NCBI GenBank assembly: GCA_944326515.1
Contig: CALVEI010000008.1
Location: forward strand, 1-51,153
Direction: 5' to 3'
Length of the DNA stretch: 51,153 nucleotides
Source of the DNA: Candidatus Gastranaerophilales bacterium
GTDB lineage: Bacteria; Cyanobacteriota; Vampirovibrionia; Gastranaerophilales; Gastranaerophilaceae
Of this stretch, positions 16,597 through 43,114 are shown one piece after another. How positions within the stretch are numbered: the stretch's first letter is position 1; each line of letters begins with the position of its first letter. The notes beneath the pieces were generated by a model, which was not told where the DNA came from, made no database searches, and saw only the letters and a program-made list of their open reading frames with translations. A program made the translations under genes and the position numbers.

Positions 16597-16619
16597 AAGG
16601 GGGCGAAAGCCCCCTTTTT
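16597..16619 (+). terminator. gatB terminator
   Basis: AAGGGGGC-GAAA-GCCCCCTT is a GC-rich stem with a GAAA tetraloop followed by a T-run. Confidence 0.93.
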
Positions 16620-16728
16620 ATTGCCCCCAAGAGAATTGTAAACAATTGTAACAGATATAACAAATATTGAAATCGTATATAAAAATTTGTTTTTATATAT
16701 ATGTGTGTATTTAAAATAGGTGTAAGCA

Positions 16729-18057
16729 ATGACAGTATCTGGTATCAATGGTGTAAATAATACTCAAGGAACAGCTCCAACAAGATCAACATCCGCTCCA
16801 GAAGAAAATAATGAGTTATTTGAAACTGAAGAAATGACAGAAGCTGAACAAGCTGAAAGAGATAAACAAAGAGCTTTGTTAGAAGCTCAATTGGCTCAAT
16901 TGCAAGCTGAACTTGAAGAACTTATTCAAGAAAAAGCAGAAAAATTGTCTTACAATAAAGAATTAGAAGCTCAAATTAAAGCTTTACAAGCTCAAAAAGC
17001 TAGCCTTATAGCTCAAATTGAAGCAAATAATGAAGCTATAAAAGAAAATGAAGAAGAAATTAAAGAAAATCAAGCTAAAATTGAACTTGAAGAAGCAGAA
17101 ATTGAAAAATTAAAAGAACAATATGACAAAAAAACAAAAGAAGCTGATGCTTTAAACAAACAAATCAGCGAAATGATTGCTGAAATTATAAAAGATTCTG
17201 AAGAAGAAGTAGAAAACGCTAAAAAGAAAATTGAAGAAGCAACTGAAGAAGCTAACCAAAAAGTTCAATCAGGTGAATTGACAGAAGAAGAAATTGCTCA
17301 ATATGTTGCTGATAAAGTTGGAATGCCTTCAATTTCCGGTAACACAGCAAGCTTTAGTGCAATCAGCTCTATGATGTCACAAGTTAAATCATTGATGAAT
17401 GAAGCAAACGGCTATACTTCTCAAATGGCACAAAGATATGAAAATATTAATTTGTATCAAGCAAATATCAGCAAAGCTGTTGCAGAAAATAAAGTATTAG
17501 TAAAAAGCAACGAAAATTTGAAAAAACAAGTTAAAGATATCAATTCACAAATTGCAGTTGTAGGAGCAGAACAATCTTCTGTAAATGGCGAAATTGCTAA
17601 AATAAACCAACAAATTGCAAATAAACAATCTGAAATACAATCTGTTCAAGGTCAAATTGATGCGTTAGATGGTAAAGATTCTTCAGATACAACAGTTGAT
17701 TATGAACCTGAAGAACCTCAAGCTCCCGAACCAGATTACACAGATGATAACAATGATTATACAGAAACAGACGAAATAGAAACTGTTCAAGCAACTACTA
17801 CAAATCCATTTGTGGCTATCTCCTTCAACACTGCTAGCTATTCTAGCATGTTAGATGCATTAGGTGCAGCAGTATCAAACAACGAACAATCTTTCAGAAA
17901 TGCTCAAAGCACAATTACTGAAAACAAACAAAATATCAGAAATATGTTTGAAGAAATCTGGGCACAAGCATCTCAAAACAGAGAAAAAGATACAGATGAT
18001 GAAAACAACAATGAAGAAGACAAGAAGAAAAATATCTTTGAAGGTGTTCGCGGTTAA
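16729..18057 (+). CDS. Long coiled-coil protein, unknown function
   Basis: A 442-residue soluble protein. A low-complexity N-terminus (MTVSGINGVNNTQGT) lacks a classical signal peptide. A long acidic coiled coil covers about residues 35-180 (repeated LEAQLAQLQAELEEL-type heptads) and a second covers about 235-315. A Pro/Asp/Glu linker follows, then a short C-terminal helical domain. NTASFSAISSM (near 205) and NTASYSSMLDA (near 365) are similar internal motifs before each helical bundle. AGGTG lies 6 nt before ATG. It converges with another coiled-coil gene at a shared terminator. No family recognised; a filament, scaffold or exported structural protein is conceivable. Confidence 0.85.
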   Translation: MTVSGINGVNNTQGTAPTRSTSAPEENNELFETEEMTEAEQAERDKQRALLEAQLAQLQAELEELIQEKAEKLSYNKELEAQIKALQAQKASLIAQIEANNEAIKENEEEIKENQAKIELEEAEIEKLKEQYDKKTKEADALNKQISEMIAEIIKDSEEEVENAKKKIEEATEEANQKVQSGELTEEEIAQYVADKVGMPSISGNTASFSAISSMMSQVKSLMNEANGYTSQMAQRYENINLYQANISKAVAENKVLVKSNENLKKQVKDINSQIAVVGAEQSSVNGEIAKINQQIANKQSEIQSVQGQIDALDGKDSSDTTVDYEPEEPQAPEPDYTDDNNDYTETDEIETVQATTTNPFVAISFNTASYSSMLDALGAAVSNNEQSFRNAQSTITENKQNIRNMFEEIWAQASQNREKDTDDENNNEEDKKKNIFEGVRG

Positions 18058-18080
18058 TAATCAAGCAGACAGTATATAAA

Positions 18081-18111
18081 AAAAGCTCCGTTGTTTCTTA
18101 ACGGAGCTTTT
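18081..18111. terminator. Shared terminator of the convergent coiled-coil genes
   Basis: AAAAGCTCCGTT and AACGGAGCTTTT form a perfect 12-bp stem around a 7-nt loop. A-rich and T-rich flanks allow function in both directions. Confidence 0.9.
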
Positions 18112-18159
18112 ATTTTATTGTTATTAATGTATAAACATTTTTTTGAATTCAAAAACAGT

Positions 18160-19542
18160 TTATACGTTTTGTTCTTTGTTTTTCTTTAAGAAAGGATTTG
18201 AATCAAAAAGGTTTAAACCGCCATTTTGATAGTTTTGAATAAAGTTAGCAGTAGATGCAAGTGTTTGGTTTAATGCTGCGCTTTCTTCTGCAGTCATTTT
18301 ACGTTTACTTGATGTTTCTTCTGTTGCAGCATTATTTTTGAAAGCGTTGCCGATTGATTGCATTCCACCCATACCTTGATTAAAAAGATTCATTGCTGAT
18401 TGGAATTTGTTGTTTCCATTGGAAGCTTTTTCACTTGCTGCTGCACCGATAGCGCTGCCTTCTTCGCCTTCTTCAAGTCTTTTTAATGTATCATCTAATT
18501 GTTTGCTTAATTCTGAAGATTGCTTTTGTACGTCAGCTTTAACAGCTTCATATTCAGTCTTTTTAGCTTGCAATTCTGTTTGTGCTGTTTGTAATTCTTC
18601 TTTTGCTTTGCTAAGGTTTTGATTAGCAGTGTCTAATTTTTGTTGAGCTTGTGTAAGGTCTTTTTCTGCTTTTTGAAGAGCCTTTTCATCATTCTCTAGT
18701 TGTGCTTTTGCTTTATCTCTTTCAGCTGTAGCAAGTTCTTTTTCTGCAGTTGCTTTTTCTAATTCGGCTTTTGCTACTTGAAGTTTTGCCTCAGCTGCTT
18801 TTTCAGCTGCTTCTGCTGTCGCAAGTGCTGTTTGAGCTGCAGCTACTGCTGCAGCAGAGTATGGTGATGCACTTTGTGCTGCAGAAAGTGCTGATTTTGC
18901 TTGTGTTACTGATTCTTTTGCACTTGTTAATGTAGCTTCTGCAGATGACACATTTTCTTTAGCTGTTTTTTCAGCTGCTTCTGCTTGTTTTAAAGATGTT
19001 TCTTTTGCTTCTAAAGTAGCTTTTTGAGTATCTACTTTAGCTGATTTTTCATCTTTTGCTACTTCTGCACCGTCTTTTACGCCTTGTGCTTCAGTTTGGC
19101 CTTCTGTTGCTGTTACAACGCCTTGTTCTTTAGAGCCAACGACACCTTCTGCACCGTTAACTGCTTGGTTTGCTGTTGTAACACTGTTTGCGGCGTCAGG
19201 TGATGATGCTAAATTATCAACACCGTTTTTGGCCGCTTGAACAACACCTACGTCGTTGCTGTTAACTGCAGCGTTGCCTTCTTCAATTTCTGCGTCAGTG
19301 CCTGAACCTGTTGAAGATGTTGGTGCAGGTGTTCCTGAACCGTAAGCAACATCAGGGGTTACATAGTTTTGGTTATGAGATGAAAAAGAAACGTCATCTC
19401 CTATACCCCAGTTGCCATTGCCGTTTAATCCGACATCAACTTTTGGTACTTCAACAGCATAAGATGTGTTAAAATTTAAAAGTTTTTTAAAATCTATTTT
19501 TAATTTGTCTTGATTATTGCCAAAGCTTACACCGTCGCCCAT
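18160..19542 (-). CDS. Ala-rich coiled-coil protein, unknown function
   Basis: A 460-residue soluble protein with three parts. The N-terminal ~75 residues are Gly/Asn-rich with a repeated phrase (GDGVSFGNNQ at the start, GDDVSFSSHNQN near 48). About residues 75-165 are Ser/Gly/Ala linker. About 165-355 are an Ala/Lys/Glu helix of TolA or M-protein character (EKAAEAKLQVAKAELEKATA-type repeats). The C-terminal ~100 residues form a Gln/Asn/Gly helical domain ending NPFLKKNKEQNV. There is no signal peptide. The ribosome site is weak (GAGAG). It converges with the coiled-coil gene at 16729 and is divergent from the small membrane protein at 19743. No family recognised. Confidence 0.85.
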   Translation of the reverse strand: MGDGVSFGNNQDKLKIDFKKLLNFNTSYAVEVPKVDVGLNGNGNWGIGDDVSFSSHNQNYVTPDVAYGSGTPAPTSSTGSGTDAEIEEGNAAVNSNDVGVVQAAKNGVDNLASSPDAANSVTTANQAVNGAEGVVGSKEQGVVTATEGQTEAQGVKDGAEVAKDEKSAKVDTQKATLEAKETSLKQAEAAEKTAKENVSSAEATLTSAKESVTQAKSALSAAQSASPYSAAAVAAAQTALATAEAAEKAAEAKLQVAKAELEKATAEKELATAERDKAKAQLENDEKALQKAEKDLTQAQQKLDTANQNLSKAKEELQTAQTELQAKKTEYEAVKADVQKQSSELSKQLDDTLKRLEEGEEGSAIGAAASEKASNGNNKFQSAMNLFNQGMGGMQSIGNAFKNNAATEETSSKRKMTAEESAALNQTLASTANFIQNYQNGGLNLFDSNPFLKKNKEQNV

Positions 19543-19605
19543 TTATATGCTCTCTTTCTTACTTTTTTACTCTCTATATAAATAAAAACCTTTTGTAGCA
19601 AGTAA

Positions 19606-19634
19606 TTGACAGTAAAGTATATACTTTTTATATA
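19606..19634 (+). promoter_or_regulatory. Strong promoter with a palindrome in its spacer
   Basis: TTGACA (19606-19611), 17 bp, then TATATA (19629-19634). The spacer contains the perfect palindrome AAAGTATATACTTT (19614-19627), well placed to be an operator that blocks RNA polymerase. The predicted leader of the downstream gene is about 100 nt. Divergent -10-like sequences for the coiled-coil gene starting at 19542 lie in the same region. Confidence 0.65.
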
Positions 19635-19742
19635 TTATTTACATAAGTTTACAATTGTGTCTTTTTGTAAATATGATGCGCTTTTTTAGCAAAATTTTTT
19701 GTGTTTTTGACTTTAAGAAGATGTAACTTAGTGAGGTGTCGT

Positions 19743-20123
19743 ATGAAATTATCAGATATTAACAAAGCATTCAAATTAAACACTTATACAAAAACTGTTA
19801 AACCATTTTTTAAAGAACAGATAAAGAATGCAAAAACTTTGTCAAAAGACACTTTTGAGTTTGTTAAAAACAACCCTAAAAAGATTGGTAAATATGCTGC
19901 AGTCGGCTTGATGATTGCTTCTGCAGGTACAGCTCTTGTAAAGACAATCAAGGATTATTTGAATGTAAAAGCACAAAATAAAATTCTTGCTAATTTTGTG
20001 GTTATGCAGAAAAAGTCTAATGATGAATTAAAAGATTATATCGGTGTTCAAAAAGAAATTATTGCTGGCAAAGATGAAACAATCGATGCTCAGCAAAAAA
20101 TTATTGAAGACCTTAAAAAATAA
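19743..20123 (+). CDS. Small membrane-anchored coiled-coil protein
   Basis: A 126-residue protein: a basic N-terminal half, one hydrophobic segment at about residues 58-80 (IGKYAAVGLMIASAGTALVK), then a hydrophilic coiled-coil tail (DELKDYIGVQKEIIAGKDET). I start it at ATG 19743, which has GAGGTG immediately upstream; a longer frame to 19701 has no ribosome site. It lies next to the two large coiled-coil genes and is divergent from one of them. It could anchor them to the membrane, which is inference only. A hairpin terminator follows. Confidence 0.75.
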   Translation: MKLSDINKAFKLNTYTKTVKPFFKEQIKNAKTLSKDTFEFVKNNPKKIGKYAAVGLMIASAGTALVKTIKDYLNVKAQNKILANFVVMQKKSNDELKDYIGVQKEIIAGKDETIDAQQKIIEDLKK

Positions 20124-20152: not shown

Positions 20153-20203
20153 AAAAAGCTTTCTAAGATAAAGTTAGCATATTTTATTTAGAAGGCTTTT
20201 TTT
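20153..20203 (+). terminator. Terminator before comEC
   Basis: AAAAAGCTTTCTAAG pairs with TTTAGAAGGCTTTTT (two wobble pairs) across a 19-nt loop, followed by T residues. It separates the small membrane protein gene from comEC. Confidence 0.7.
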
Positions 20204-20216
20204 ATATGATTAGACA

Positions 20217-22673
20217 ATGGAAAAAGATGAAAATTTGAAAAATGAGAGCCTGAATAAAGTTGTAATTTTTGCATCTTTTTATATTGCAGGAGTAATAAGC
20301 TTTTTTACTCATACAGAGATTTTTGTTGCATTGTTCCTTTTAGTTTTGACATTGTTTGGATTAATCAAAAATTTAATTTCAAACAAATCTGCAATTATTT
20401 TTTATTTGATATTTATTGTTGCTCTTATAAATTGTCATTACCAAATTAAAAATCACGATGATTTATCAAAATTTATTTCTTCAAAAGCTGTTATTACCGG
20501 TACTGTGCTAAGTATTCCGACAACTAATAATGCAGAAAAAACAAAATTCTATCTAAAAGCGGAGTCAGGTACTTTTGATGGAATTAAGGTAAATAATCTT
20601 AATGCCAAAACTATTGTTACTCTTGTGGATACACAAGAAAATATTTCTAAGATTAAAATTGCCGATAAGATTGAATTGAGAGGAAAATTAAGAAAGCCGA
20701 TGAAGGCTAAAAATCCTTCTCAATTTGATTATTCAAACTATTTGAAAAATCATGGGGTTTTTTCTACCTTTTATGTGAAAAAGAGCGGTTGGGAAATATT
20801 GCAGGCACCGGATAGCTTTTGTGGTAGGTTTCTTCAAAAACTTAATGATACAAGAACAAACATATTGAGTCATCAAAAGAAGTATGTAAAAACTCCTAAT
20901 ATTGAGGTTCTTGGAGGAATTGTTTTTGGTGATGATGCAATTAATCCTCCTGATTATATTAAAGATTCGTTTATCAACTCAGGTTTGTTGCATATATTAG
21001 CTGCATCAGGTATGAATGTTTCAATCATTTTCGGGTTGTGGTATTTTATCGGTCGTCGCTTGAGGTTAAATTATCATTTGGTAGTTTTGACTGGTGCGTT
21101 GCTTGTTGCTTTTTATACTTTGATGACTGGTATGGGGCCTTCTGTTTTGAGAGCTGCAATTATGATTGAGTTTATAATCTTGGGTAAATTAATTGACCGA
21201 AGTGCAAATAGCATATCTTTAATTTTTTTAGTCGCTTTTTTGATGTTGTTGTACGATCCTCGAATGATAAATGATGTGGGCTTTCAGTTATCTTTTGTAG
21301 TAACTTTCGCCCTTATATTTTATTGTCCGCCTGTGTTGAGTGAAATAAAAAACAAAATTGTTGAAGTAATATGTGGTGCAATTTTGATTCCTTTTGCCGC
21401 TCAGTTGTGGGCAGCACCTATACAGATGTTTTATTTTAATACTTTTGCAACTTACTCAGTGTTAGCAAATCTTGTAATATCTCCTTTTATCGGTGTGATA
21501 AGTTTTCTTGGATTTTTAAGTTCAATTCTTGCAATGATACCGGTAGAAATTTTTGCTGATAAAGTTTGTATGATATTTTCGTGGGTACTAAATCCCGTTG
21601 TAACTGTGGTTGTAAAAGTTTCTGATTATTTTGCTGTTTTACCGAATTCGTTGTTAACTACTGTACATCCCGATATATTTCAAATTATTTTGTACTATTC
21701 AATATTGTTAATTGTCGGATTTTTGATAAAAGAAAAATTTACTAACAAAAAACTTTTTGGCACTGTACTGATATTATTTATGCTTTTTGTTGTGTCTTTT
21801 GCTAAAATCGATAAAAAAGAACTTGAGATAATTGTTTTTGATGTTGGTAATGCTGACAGCTTTTTGATAAAAACGCCAAATAACAAATACATTATGATAG
21901 ACACAGCTCATGGAGTTTTGGAAGGTTCTTTGTCCTCTTTTTCTCAGGCAGATGCAATAATGAATAAATATATGAAAGACAGGGGAATAAAAAATCTTGA
22001 GCTTTTGTTGTTGACTCATTTTGATTCTGACCACTCAGGCGGTGCGGTTGATATTATGCAATCAACAAATGTAAAAAAGGTTGTTTTAAATAAAAATAAC
22101 GATAATTCTAAAACAACTAAAAAGATTTATGACTATTTAAATAAAAATAAAATTAATACTGTTTATGTAGAAAATAAAAAGGTTTTATATAACGAAGAAA
22201 ATCTCAATTTAACCACATATAATCCATATTTTAAAAATAACAAAAACGATAACGATAATTCTACAGTCTCTCTTTTATCGTACAAAAATTTTGATATGTT
22301 GTTTATGGCCGACGCCGGGGTTAAAAGTTTTAATAAAATCAAAAAAGATTTAAGAAAAAATGATATAGAAATTTTAAAATCAGGCCATCACGGTGCGAAC
22401 AATACCGTGTCAAAAGAAATGTTAAAAGAGATAAATGCGGATAACGTGATAATTTCCACGGGTTACAATTCTTACGGACATCCGACCAAACAAACTTTAA
22501 AGACTCTCTCAAAAAGCAATGTCAAAGTATATAGAACAGATATTGATAATGCGATAAAAATCACAAGTGACGGCATAAATTATAAAATATACAAGTATGA
22601 TACAGTAAAAAGAAAATTTGTTTTAGACACGGAAAAACCTTGTATTACTGCGATTAAGCCTGCTGGTAATTAA
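20217..22673 (+). CDS. comEC: ComEC/Rec2 DNA-uptake channel
   Basis: Inner-membrane channel thought to carry single-stranded DNA into the cytoplasm during natural transformation. It has 818 residues. N-terminal helices and a DUF4131-type soluble domain come first. The Competence domain follows, with the typical LHILAASGMNVSIIFG (near residue 260) and about ten membrane helices. The C-terminal metallo-beta-lactamase domain has DVGNADSFLI, HFDSDHSGG (near 600) and SGHHGANN. There is no Shine-Dalgarno sequence; TATGAT 6 nt before the ATG suggests a leaderless mRNA. The pil genes at 38-50 kb could supply the outer part of an uptake system. Confidence 0.94.
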   Translation: MEKDENLKNESLNKVVIFASFYIAGVISFFTHTEIFVALFLLVLTLFGLIKNLISNKSAIIFYLIFIVALINCHYQIKNHDDLSKFISSKAVITGTVLSIPTTNNAEKTKFYLKAESGTFDGIKVNNLNAKTIVTLVDTQENISKIKIADKIELRGKLRKPMKAKNPSQFDYSNYLKNHGVFSTFYVKKSGWEILQAPDSFCGRFLQKLNDTRTNILSHQKKYVKTPNIEVLGGIVFGDDAINPPDYIKDSFINSGLLHILAASGMNVSIIFGLWYFIGRRLRLNYHLVVLTGALLVAFYTLMTGMGPSVLRAAIMIEFIILGKLIDRSANSISLIFLVAFLMLLYDPRMINDVGFQLSFVVTFALIFYCPPVLSEIKNKIVEVICGAILIPFAAQLWAAPIQMFYFNTFATYSVLANLVISPFIGVISFLGFLSSILAMIPVEIFADKVCMIFSWVLNPVVTVVVKVSDYFAVLPNSLLTTVHPDIFQIILYYSILLIVGFLIKEKFTNKKLFGTVLILFMLFVVSFAKIDKKELEIIVFDVGNADSFLIKTPNNKYIMIDTAHGVLEGSLSSFSQADAIMNKYMKDRGIKNLELLLLTHFDSDHSGGAVDIMQSTNVKKVVLNKNNDNSKTTKKIYDYLNKNKINTVYVENKKVLYNEENLNLTTYNPYFKNNKNDNDNSTVSLLSYKNFDMLFMADAGVKSFNKIKKDLRKNDIEILKSGHHGANNTVSKEMLKEINADNVIISTGYNSYGHPTKQTLKTLSKSNVKVYRTDIDNAIKITSDGINYKIYKYDTVKRKFVLDTEKPCITAIKPAGN

Positions 22674-42927: not shown

Positions 42928-43114
42928 TGTGTTAATTTTAAATGTGGTTTTTTGTAAACGAATGTAAAGCAAAAAACTTTATCAATGAAAAATTTGCCTA
43001 ATTTTCAATACTGTAATAGAATTATATTAAAATAGGCTGTTTGTATGTTACTAATAACATGCAAAGGTATTAGAATTAAGGTTACGAAGAAGAAGTATAA
43101 AAAAGAGAGTGTAA

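Follow-up and report, generated by a model that had tools for sequence, protein, structure and literature searches.

We analysed a 51,153-nt stretch of DNA (hereafter the window; assembly GCA_944326515.1, contig CALVEI010000008.1) from Candidatus Gastranaerophilales, a non-photosynthetic gut relative of the cyanobacteria known almost solely from assembled genomes. The genome in question comprises 2.2 Mb in 119 contigs and is 97.84% complete. An earlier note, made from the sequence alone, had described three unannotated genes in this window, here called genes 1, 2, and 3 (Table 1), together with a 10-mer found upstream of gene 1 and, inverted, between genes 2 and 3. Part of that observation was confirmed and its interpretation was supported in part. 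Genes 1 and 2 do encode two large soluble coiled-coil proteins (442 and 460 residues) whose open reading frames (ORFs) converge on one two-way terminator-like hairpin, and their heptad (3.5-residue) periodicity was far above that of shuffled sequences (z up to 8.1 and 11.5, respectively). The third gene is divergent from gene 2, as described, and encodes a single, weak transmembrane-like segment; its start, however, is most likely the ATG at 19743 and not the GTG at 19701, since GAGGTG lies immediately 5' of that ATG and relatives align from about there.

The 10-mer, AATTGTAAAC, occurs three times in the window vs. 0.56 times expected, a count reached by 2 of 100 shuffles. Both copies reported at the trio turned out to be half-sites of an 18-bp direct-repeat box, KTTACAWW-N2-KTTACAWW, that is conserved across species. 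HLR1, the site of the cyanobacterial regulator RpaB, is given as 5'-KTTACAWW-N2-KTTACAWW-3' (PMC13421787; the same motif appears in PMC11633204). Among 15 loci, the box upstream of gene 1 was perfect at 13 and had one mismatch at two, lying 68-82 nt 5' of the start codon, and the box between genes 2 and 3 was perfect at 11, with one mismatch at one locus and two mismatches at three (two of them in a second genus, g19). Gene 1 and genes 2-3 of a further relative, G118, bear boxes as well. When the sequence upstream of gene 1 in the window was shuffled, a match within one mismatch of the box arose in 0 of 200 trials. Mean pairwise identity over the 100 nt upstream of gene 1 was 87% (seven loci), vs. 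58% for gatB and 61% for comEC at the same loci. Within this region, a 76-nt element containing the box accompanies gene 1 even where the neighboring genes have changed (L068, L071, L073, and L017), and it is recognizable in genera g19 and g32, where the proteins share 23-27% identity with gene 1. No RNA structure (0 pairs) was found in the 76-nt element, i.e., its conservation is of sequence only.

Three OmpR-type regulators are encoded in the genome. One passes the NCBIfam model for RpaB (NF045944; 371 bits vs. a cut-off of 330), with MtrA and YycF as the runners-up among NCBIfam models, and the other two, for which RpaB is again the best-scoring model, stay below the cut-off at 213 and 208 bits. 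MtrA and YycF are cell-envelope regulators of other bacteria; their place as runners-up would fit an envelope role, although it proves nothing. Homologues of RpaB and of its cognate kinase, NblS, were noted in this lineage by a 2013 paper, which added that another function was possible for them (PMC3787301), and orthologues of both were reported in 2014 from all three orders then known (PMC4040986), NblS being reported in the two papers for Melainabacteria. Records of rpaA and rpaB also exist (PMC5877343), RpaA homologues are known here (PMC3787301, PMC4040986), and the lineage is described in the literature as having no photosynthesis genes. In the passages concerned, the papers of 2013 and 2014 left the targets of RpaB and NblS in the lineage open (PMC3787301, PMC4040986), and searches of an open-access library found no report of HLR1 boxes, RpaB targets, or the protein families of the trio for this lineage. 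What is known is the regulator and the box; what is new is their candidate targets in a non-photosynthetic lineage.

Perfect boxes were counted genome-wide, with the reversed motif as control. There were 12 boxes vs. 2 control matches in the genome itself, and boxes exceeded the control in 142 of 142 family genomes (2995 vs. 344). Among 81 genomes sampled from other classes of the phylum, 69 were above the control and 12 were ties (526 vs. 65); these totals and those of the family are sums of per-genome counts copied by hand. To these counts we added a reading of the genes next to the boxes at the genome's own sites and at 30 loci of three relatives (10 of 13 sites in G098, 10 of 18 in G118, and 10 of 10 in G137). 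Nearly all of the sites (38 of 42) lay outside ORFs of at least 70 codons; the four inside include the gene 1 site, which overlaps just a 74-codon ORF on the opposite strand. Besides gene 1 and genes 2-3 (own genome and G098), the box recurred at ftsH with an uncharacterized divergent gene (own, G098, and G137), a 126-128-residue protein (own, G098, G118, and G137), a 97-104-residue protein (own and G098), a ZorA-like membrane protein (own and G118), and an EF-hand protein (own and G118). FtsH scores above the cut-off of its model (TIGR01241; 710 vs. 600), and ftsH2/3 are among the listed RpaB targets in cyanobacteria. An ftsH target shared by photosynthetic and non-photosynthetic lineages would be the strongest argument for the box being a true RpaB site.

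Values of the ratio of nonsynonymous to synonymous substitution rates, relative to the nearest relative, were 0.38, 0.18, and 0.29 for genes 1, 2, and 3, respectively, and all three are therefore real protein-coding genes. Gene 1 is preceded by gatB, and since a terminator-like hairpin follows gatB, it is probably transcribed separately. Genes 1 and 2 were adjacent and convergent in the analysed genome, at 9 of 13 loci of the genus (L065-L068, L070-L072, L075, and L077), and in G005 (L017). At L074 two genes intervene, the arrangement at L076 seems the same as far as the contig reaches, and in two members of the genus gene 1 is located elsewhere (L069, i.e., G072, and L073); in g19 it lies on another contig than genes 2-3. 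Genes 2 and 3, by comparison, were divergent neighbors at every locus where both were seen, including those of G055 and G082 in g19. Given these placements of gene 1, the trio is not a strict unit. Gene 3 is codirectional with comEC and lies directly 5' of it in 7 of 7 genomes of the genus, 2 of 3 of g19 (G055 and G082), and all four examined of g33, in which gene 2 is absent at that place. A terminator-like hairpin, differing in sequence, separates gene 3 from comEC at all six loci folded (own and five relatives; z -3.4 to -4.6), so that the two genes probably have separate transcripts.

Table 1. Genes, hairpins, and HLR1-type boxes at the trio and elsewhere in the window, with positions.
Feature	Position	Strand	Description	Basis
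Gene 1	16729..18057	+	442-aa soluble helical protein	ORF list, model, conservation
Gene 2	18160..19542	-	460-aa Ala/Glu/Lys-rich protein	ORF list, model, conservation
Gene 3	19743..20123	+	126-aa protein (from ATG); weak transmembrane-like segment ~48-66, then helical tail	
comEC (neighbor)	20217..22673	+	Immediately 3' of gene 3 in three genera	
HLR1-type box GTTACAAT-TG-TTTACAAT	16635..16652	-	76 nt 5' of gene 1 ATG; holds 10-mer; perfect	
HLR1-type box TTTACATA-AG-TTTACAAT	19638..19655	+	Between genes 2 and 3; holds second 10-mer; perfect	
Third HLR1-type box	42951..42968	-	Between two divergent genes	
Conserved 76-nt upstream element of gene 1	16633..16708	+	Includes the box	Aligned in 14 genus, 3 g19, and 1 g32 loci
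Terminator-like hairpin 3' of gatB	16597..16616	+		Hairpin scan
Two-way terminator-like hairpin	18081..18111	both	Between convergent genes 1 and 2	Hairpin scan
Terminator-like hairpin with U-run	20153..20203	+	Between gene 3 and comEC	Folding, z -3.4

The family was sampled with 146 genomes in the gene 1 search and 142 in the searches with gene 2, gene 3, the FHIPEP domain, and the box; since the single-protein searches mostly scored 11 candidates per genome, distant copies may be missed in the counts that follow. Gene 1 was found in 11 of 146 genomes (E<=1e-6), seven of the genome's own genus (g1), three of g19, and one of g32, and gene 2 in 11 of 142 (E<=1e-6), i.e., seven of g1, two of g19, one of g41, and a doubtful one of g38. 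A single-sequence query with gene 3 (E<=0.001) returned 10 of 142 (seven g1 and three g19), and a profile query (E<=0.01) returned 30, of which 14 were at E<=1.3e-8 (g1, g19, g32, and g33) and the others weak. Two matches to gene 2 were dropped, namely a second one in G137, recognized by eye as an HlyD-like membrane fusion protein, and one in G116, a 608-residue protein of other architecture. All three genes occurred together in nine genomes of two genera (7 of 7 sampled in g1 and 2 of 3 in g19). The co-occurrence is thus real, yet it is founded on very few independent lineages.

Searches of Pfam, NCBIfam, PHROGs, PADLOC, and the sequences of solved structures returned coiled-coil or chance matches only, and no family was accepted for any of the three proteins; some weak similarities to surface proteins or pore formers were put in the same class. 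For SMC/Rad50 proteins, no Pfam ATPase domain was above its cut-off, and the NCBIfam SMC scores were 24.5 and 38.2 vs. 567. The anti-phage SMC-like systems JetC and LmuB gave weak coil matches only (E 1e-5 to 3e-4). An alignment of genes 1 and 2 with each other covered 111 columns at 13% identity, with an hhalign probability of 90, and was rejected as coiled-coil similarity. The earlier note is supported in that, by their distribution, the three proteins are specific to the lineage and co-occur.

Hydropathy analysis found neither an N-terminal hydrophobic stretch nor a signal peptide in the products of genes 1 and 2, as had been proposed, and no surface anchor was found in either. In gene 3, the best 19-residue hydropathy was 1.47, starting at residue 48, and the best-conserved stretch, DTFEFVKNNPKK, lies immediately N-terminal to this weak membrane segment. 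The AlphaFold model of gene 1 (mean pLDDT 72.5; pTM 0.49) comprises a disordered N-tail, hairpin helices at 38-180 and 206-313, a linker, and a C-terminal helix at 369-437, while that of gene 2 (mean pLDDT 72.9; pTM 0.52) has a disordered N-tail, hairpin helices at 119-224 and 230-362 with pLDDT mostly 95-98, and a low-confidence C-terminal part. From these models and the matched structures, we read the helix pairs as folding back into long antiparallel hairpins, which would place both ends of each protein side by side, bearing the disordered tails. The tip of the gene 1 hairpin (168-212) was better conserved than its arms (3.09 bits vs. 2.70 and 2.37), as would be expected of a binding site. 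Foldseek searches with both models returned generic coiled-coil hairpins only (e.g., SMC arms), none at E<=0.001. An SMC-type arm, 5xg2, was the top match of gene 2 and the second of gene 1, with which it shares the long antiparallel two-helix hairpin; unlike SMC proteins, these two proteins have no ATPase heads, and, as noted above, they score far under the SMC cut-off.

Our preferred explanation, offered tentatively, is that the trio comprises helical proteins specific to the lineage, which are controlled by RpaB through HLR1-type boxes and act as a membrane-linked scaffold. Its parts do not stand equally: the three genes probably share a regulator and control by RpaB is likely, while the role as a cytoplasmic, membrane-linked scaffold, which we infer, is the weakest part and rather doubtful. 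Cyanobacterial RpaB is described as activating from about -66 to -45 and as repressing when its box overlaps the start (PMC13421787). By analogy with these positions, phosphorylated RpaB would bind ~60 nt 5' of the gene 1 transcription start, and with the box ~41 nt before a conserved TATATATATG, gene 1 would be activated. Phosphorylated RpaB would also bind the box that separates genes 2 and 3, which lies closely 3' of a TTGACA-17-TATATA arrangement, seen by eye and directed towards gene 3; a box over the likely start would repress gene 3, and gene 2, with the box upstream, might be activated from a distance. The protein of gene 3 could be the membrane anchor for that of gene 2, with the rods as a cytoplasmic scaffold (the least certain step), and the scaffold may, together with the FtsH protease, serve in a response that maintains the envelope. 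In common with the RpaB-HLR1 axis of photosynthetic cyanobacteria are the 18-bp box itself, an RpaB that passes the curated cut-off, ftsH among the targets, and the placing of boxes upstream of likely start sites as well as over them. However, there are no photosynthesis genes to control here, and the boxes precede lineage-specific helical and unnamed proteins. It is plausible, though somewhat less likely than not, that RpaB and HLR1 form a conserved regulon in this non-photosynthetic lineage (FtsH, the coiled-coil scaffold genes, and a putative, undescribed multi-copy small RNA) and that their original job, before light metabolism, was the maintenance of the envelope and of protein quality. 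If so, a switch known for photosynthesis genes has a second, non-photosynthetic job, and since the boxes supply concrete candidate targets, the role of RpaB outside photosynthesis becomes directly testable. The boxes are also a first functional handle on conserved unnamed proteins of a gut lineage.

Several results weigh against this explanation. The main one, which makes control by RpaB alone harder to extend beyond the genus, is the decay of the second half-site: the gene 1 box has two mismatches in g19, and upstream of gene 1 in G032 (g32) no box was found within two mismatches, while the remainder of the element is retained. Likewise, no box precedes gene 3 in three of four g33 genomes, and three genomes of another family in the same class showed no enrichment (1 vs. 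3). The reversed-motif control keeps base composition but not dinucleotides, the positions of the boxes relative to transcription starts were guessed by eye, and a promoter scan listed none of these promoters (7 sites found vs. 12.2 in shuffles). As for the scaffold, the transmembrane segment of gene 3 is weak and a terminator separates this gene from comEC. Finally, with three OmpR-type regulators in the genome, one other than RpaB could bind the box, leaving the trio co-regulated yet outside the RpaB regulon. The two further regulators, which find their best match in the RpaB model, make this conceivable, but a single regulator reaches the cut-off of that model, the box shows no mismatch to the consensus published for RpaB, and ftsH is a target in common with cyanobacterial RpaB; we regard another regulator as improbable.

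The other alternatives concern what the proteins do. The earlier note had proposed a cytoskeletal, surface, or exported filament system, and long coiled coils, lineage specificity, and co-occurrence would suit filaments of the cytoskeleton or the cell surface. The coiled-coil-rich filament proteins of cyanobacteria are similar in their coiled-coil composition, but no sequence match to them was found here. In the models, both large proteins form antiparallel hairpins whose ends adjoin, in contrast to extended rods and to intermediate filaments with their parallel coiled coils, and the Pfam model for the latter (PF00038) gave 10.6 bits vs. a cut-off of 40 (E=0.42); genes 1 and 2 also lack a surface anchor or signal peptide. 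Nor were the repeated motifs cited in that proposal mostly conserved: NTASFS/NTASYS is not, with NKNSYS at the second place in the nearest relative already, and only some members of the genus retain GDGVSF where gene 2 starts, while its second copy, GDDVSF, does lie within a better conserved G-[VIT]-G-D-xxx-F-[ST]. Because of the hairpin models, the mostly unconserved motifs, and the lack of any sign of polymerization or export, the filament, surface, and export interpretation was not upheld, and a filament system seems unlikely. Export could still operate if the products of genes 1 and 2, which lack signal peptides, were substrates or accessories of the flagellar or a second flagellum-like export apparatus and gene 3 supplied a partner in the membrane. 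Two full-length FlhA-type export gates are encoded in the genome, the higher-scoring, flagellar-type FlhA occurs in 11 of 11 genomes with gene 1 (E<=1e-6), and FlhB-like and sigma-28-like genes were seen by eye near genes 2-3 in G072 and G137. On the other hand, gene 1 is confined to three genera, which makes the association weak, and neither a secretion motif nor a chaperone was found. Within the window, the surroundings of the trio showed no recognizable flagellar or export gene, and cysteines, absent in this species, number several in gene 1 of a relative (L016); we hold this export role to be unlikely. The position of gene 3 next to comEC in 7 g1, 2 of 3 g19, and 4 of 4 g33 genomes, and the pilus-type genes recognized by eye at about 37.9-49.7 kb of the window, could instead make gene 3, and via gene 3 also gene 2, an accessory of ComEC-based DNA uptake with the type IV pilus genes as its other half. 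This too has little probability in our estimation, given the hairpin between the two genes at each locus folded, the place of gene 3 in G019 (g19), where it is not beside comEC in the stretch read, and comEC itself, which in the analysed genome is not preceded by a perfect box.

Some further observations were made around the export gates and the boxes. A second flagellum-like export cluster (L130:9906-16873; G000:C1, about 122-129 kb) encodes an FlhA-type gate, a FliI-type ATPase, and a FliF-type ring protein, all below their equivalog cut-offs; the gate scored 697.9 bits vs. 772.1 with the FlhA model and 590.7 vs. 692.25 with the SctV model. FHIPEP matches occurred in 141 of 142 family genomes, many with the lower-scoring kind only. 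The box-bearing ZorA-like membrane protein of the genome (L142:1616-3018; 78.6 bits vs. a cut-off of 100) has an apparent OmpA/MotB-like partner, and the box is upstream in G118 too; a similar-looking pair adjoins gene 1 in G019 (L021:9889-11514), with no box within two mismatches there. The putative small RNA, ~140 nt long, combines an HLR1-type box, TATATATATG spaced as at gene 1, a conserved unpaired stretch rich in C and U, and a terminator followed by a U-run. Six copies were seen in four genomes, all at loci fetched for their box: L140:1338-1371 (-) and L143:1338-1371 (-) in the genome itself, L151 and L172 in G118, L173 in G098, and L156 in G137. Five of the loci were scanned against Rfam without a match, and duplex energies with the starts of the trio genes were unremarkable (gene 3 ranking 4th, gene 1 8th, and gene 2 12th of 31). 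In cyanobacteria, an RpaB-controlled small RNA, PsrR1, is described.

Many small uncharacterized proteins of these genomes share a [VI][STN]F[KG][GA]-like motif close to the N-terminus (e.g., L144:548-841, L141:1594-2073, L130:19565-19945, and L014:1328-1645). The N-terminal [VI][STN]F motif was present in 4 of 171 and 5 of 181 genes, vs. shuffle means of 1.3 and 1.6 and maxima of 5 and 7, and genome-wide it is only a lead. Matches of the gene 1 upstream model elsewhere (L054, L147, and L159 among others) were weak, at E 0.025 to 0.7. In G064 (g33), the gene divergent from gene 3 (L114:6396-7358) resembles, by eye, a box-bearing gene of 282 codons in the analysed genome (L143:1600-2448), and the intergenic region between gene 3 and that divergent gene holds a perfect box.

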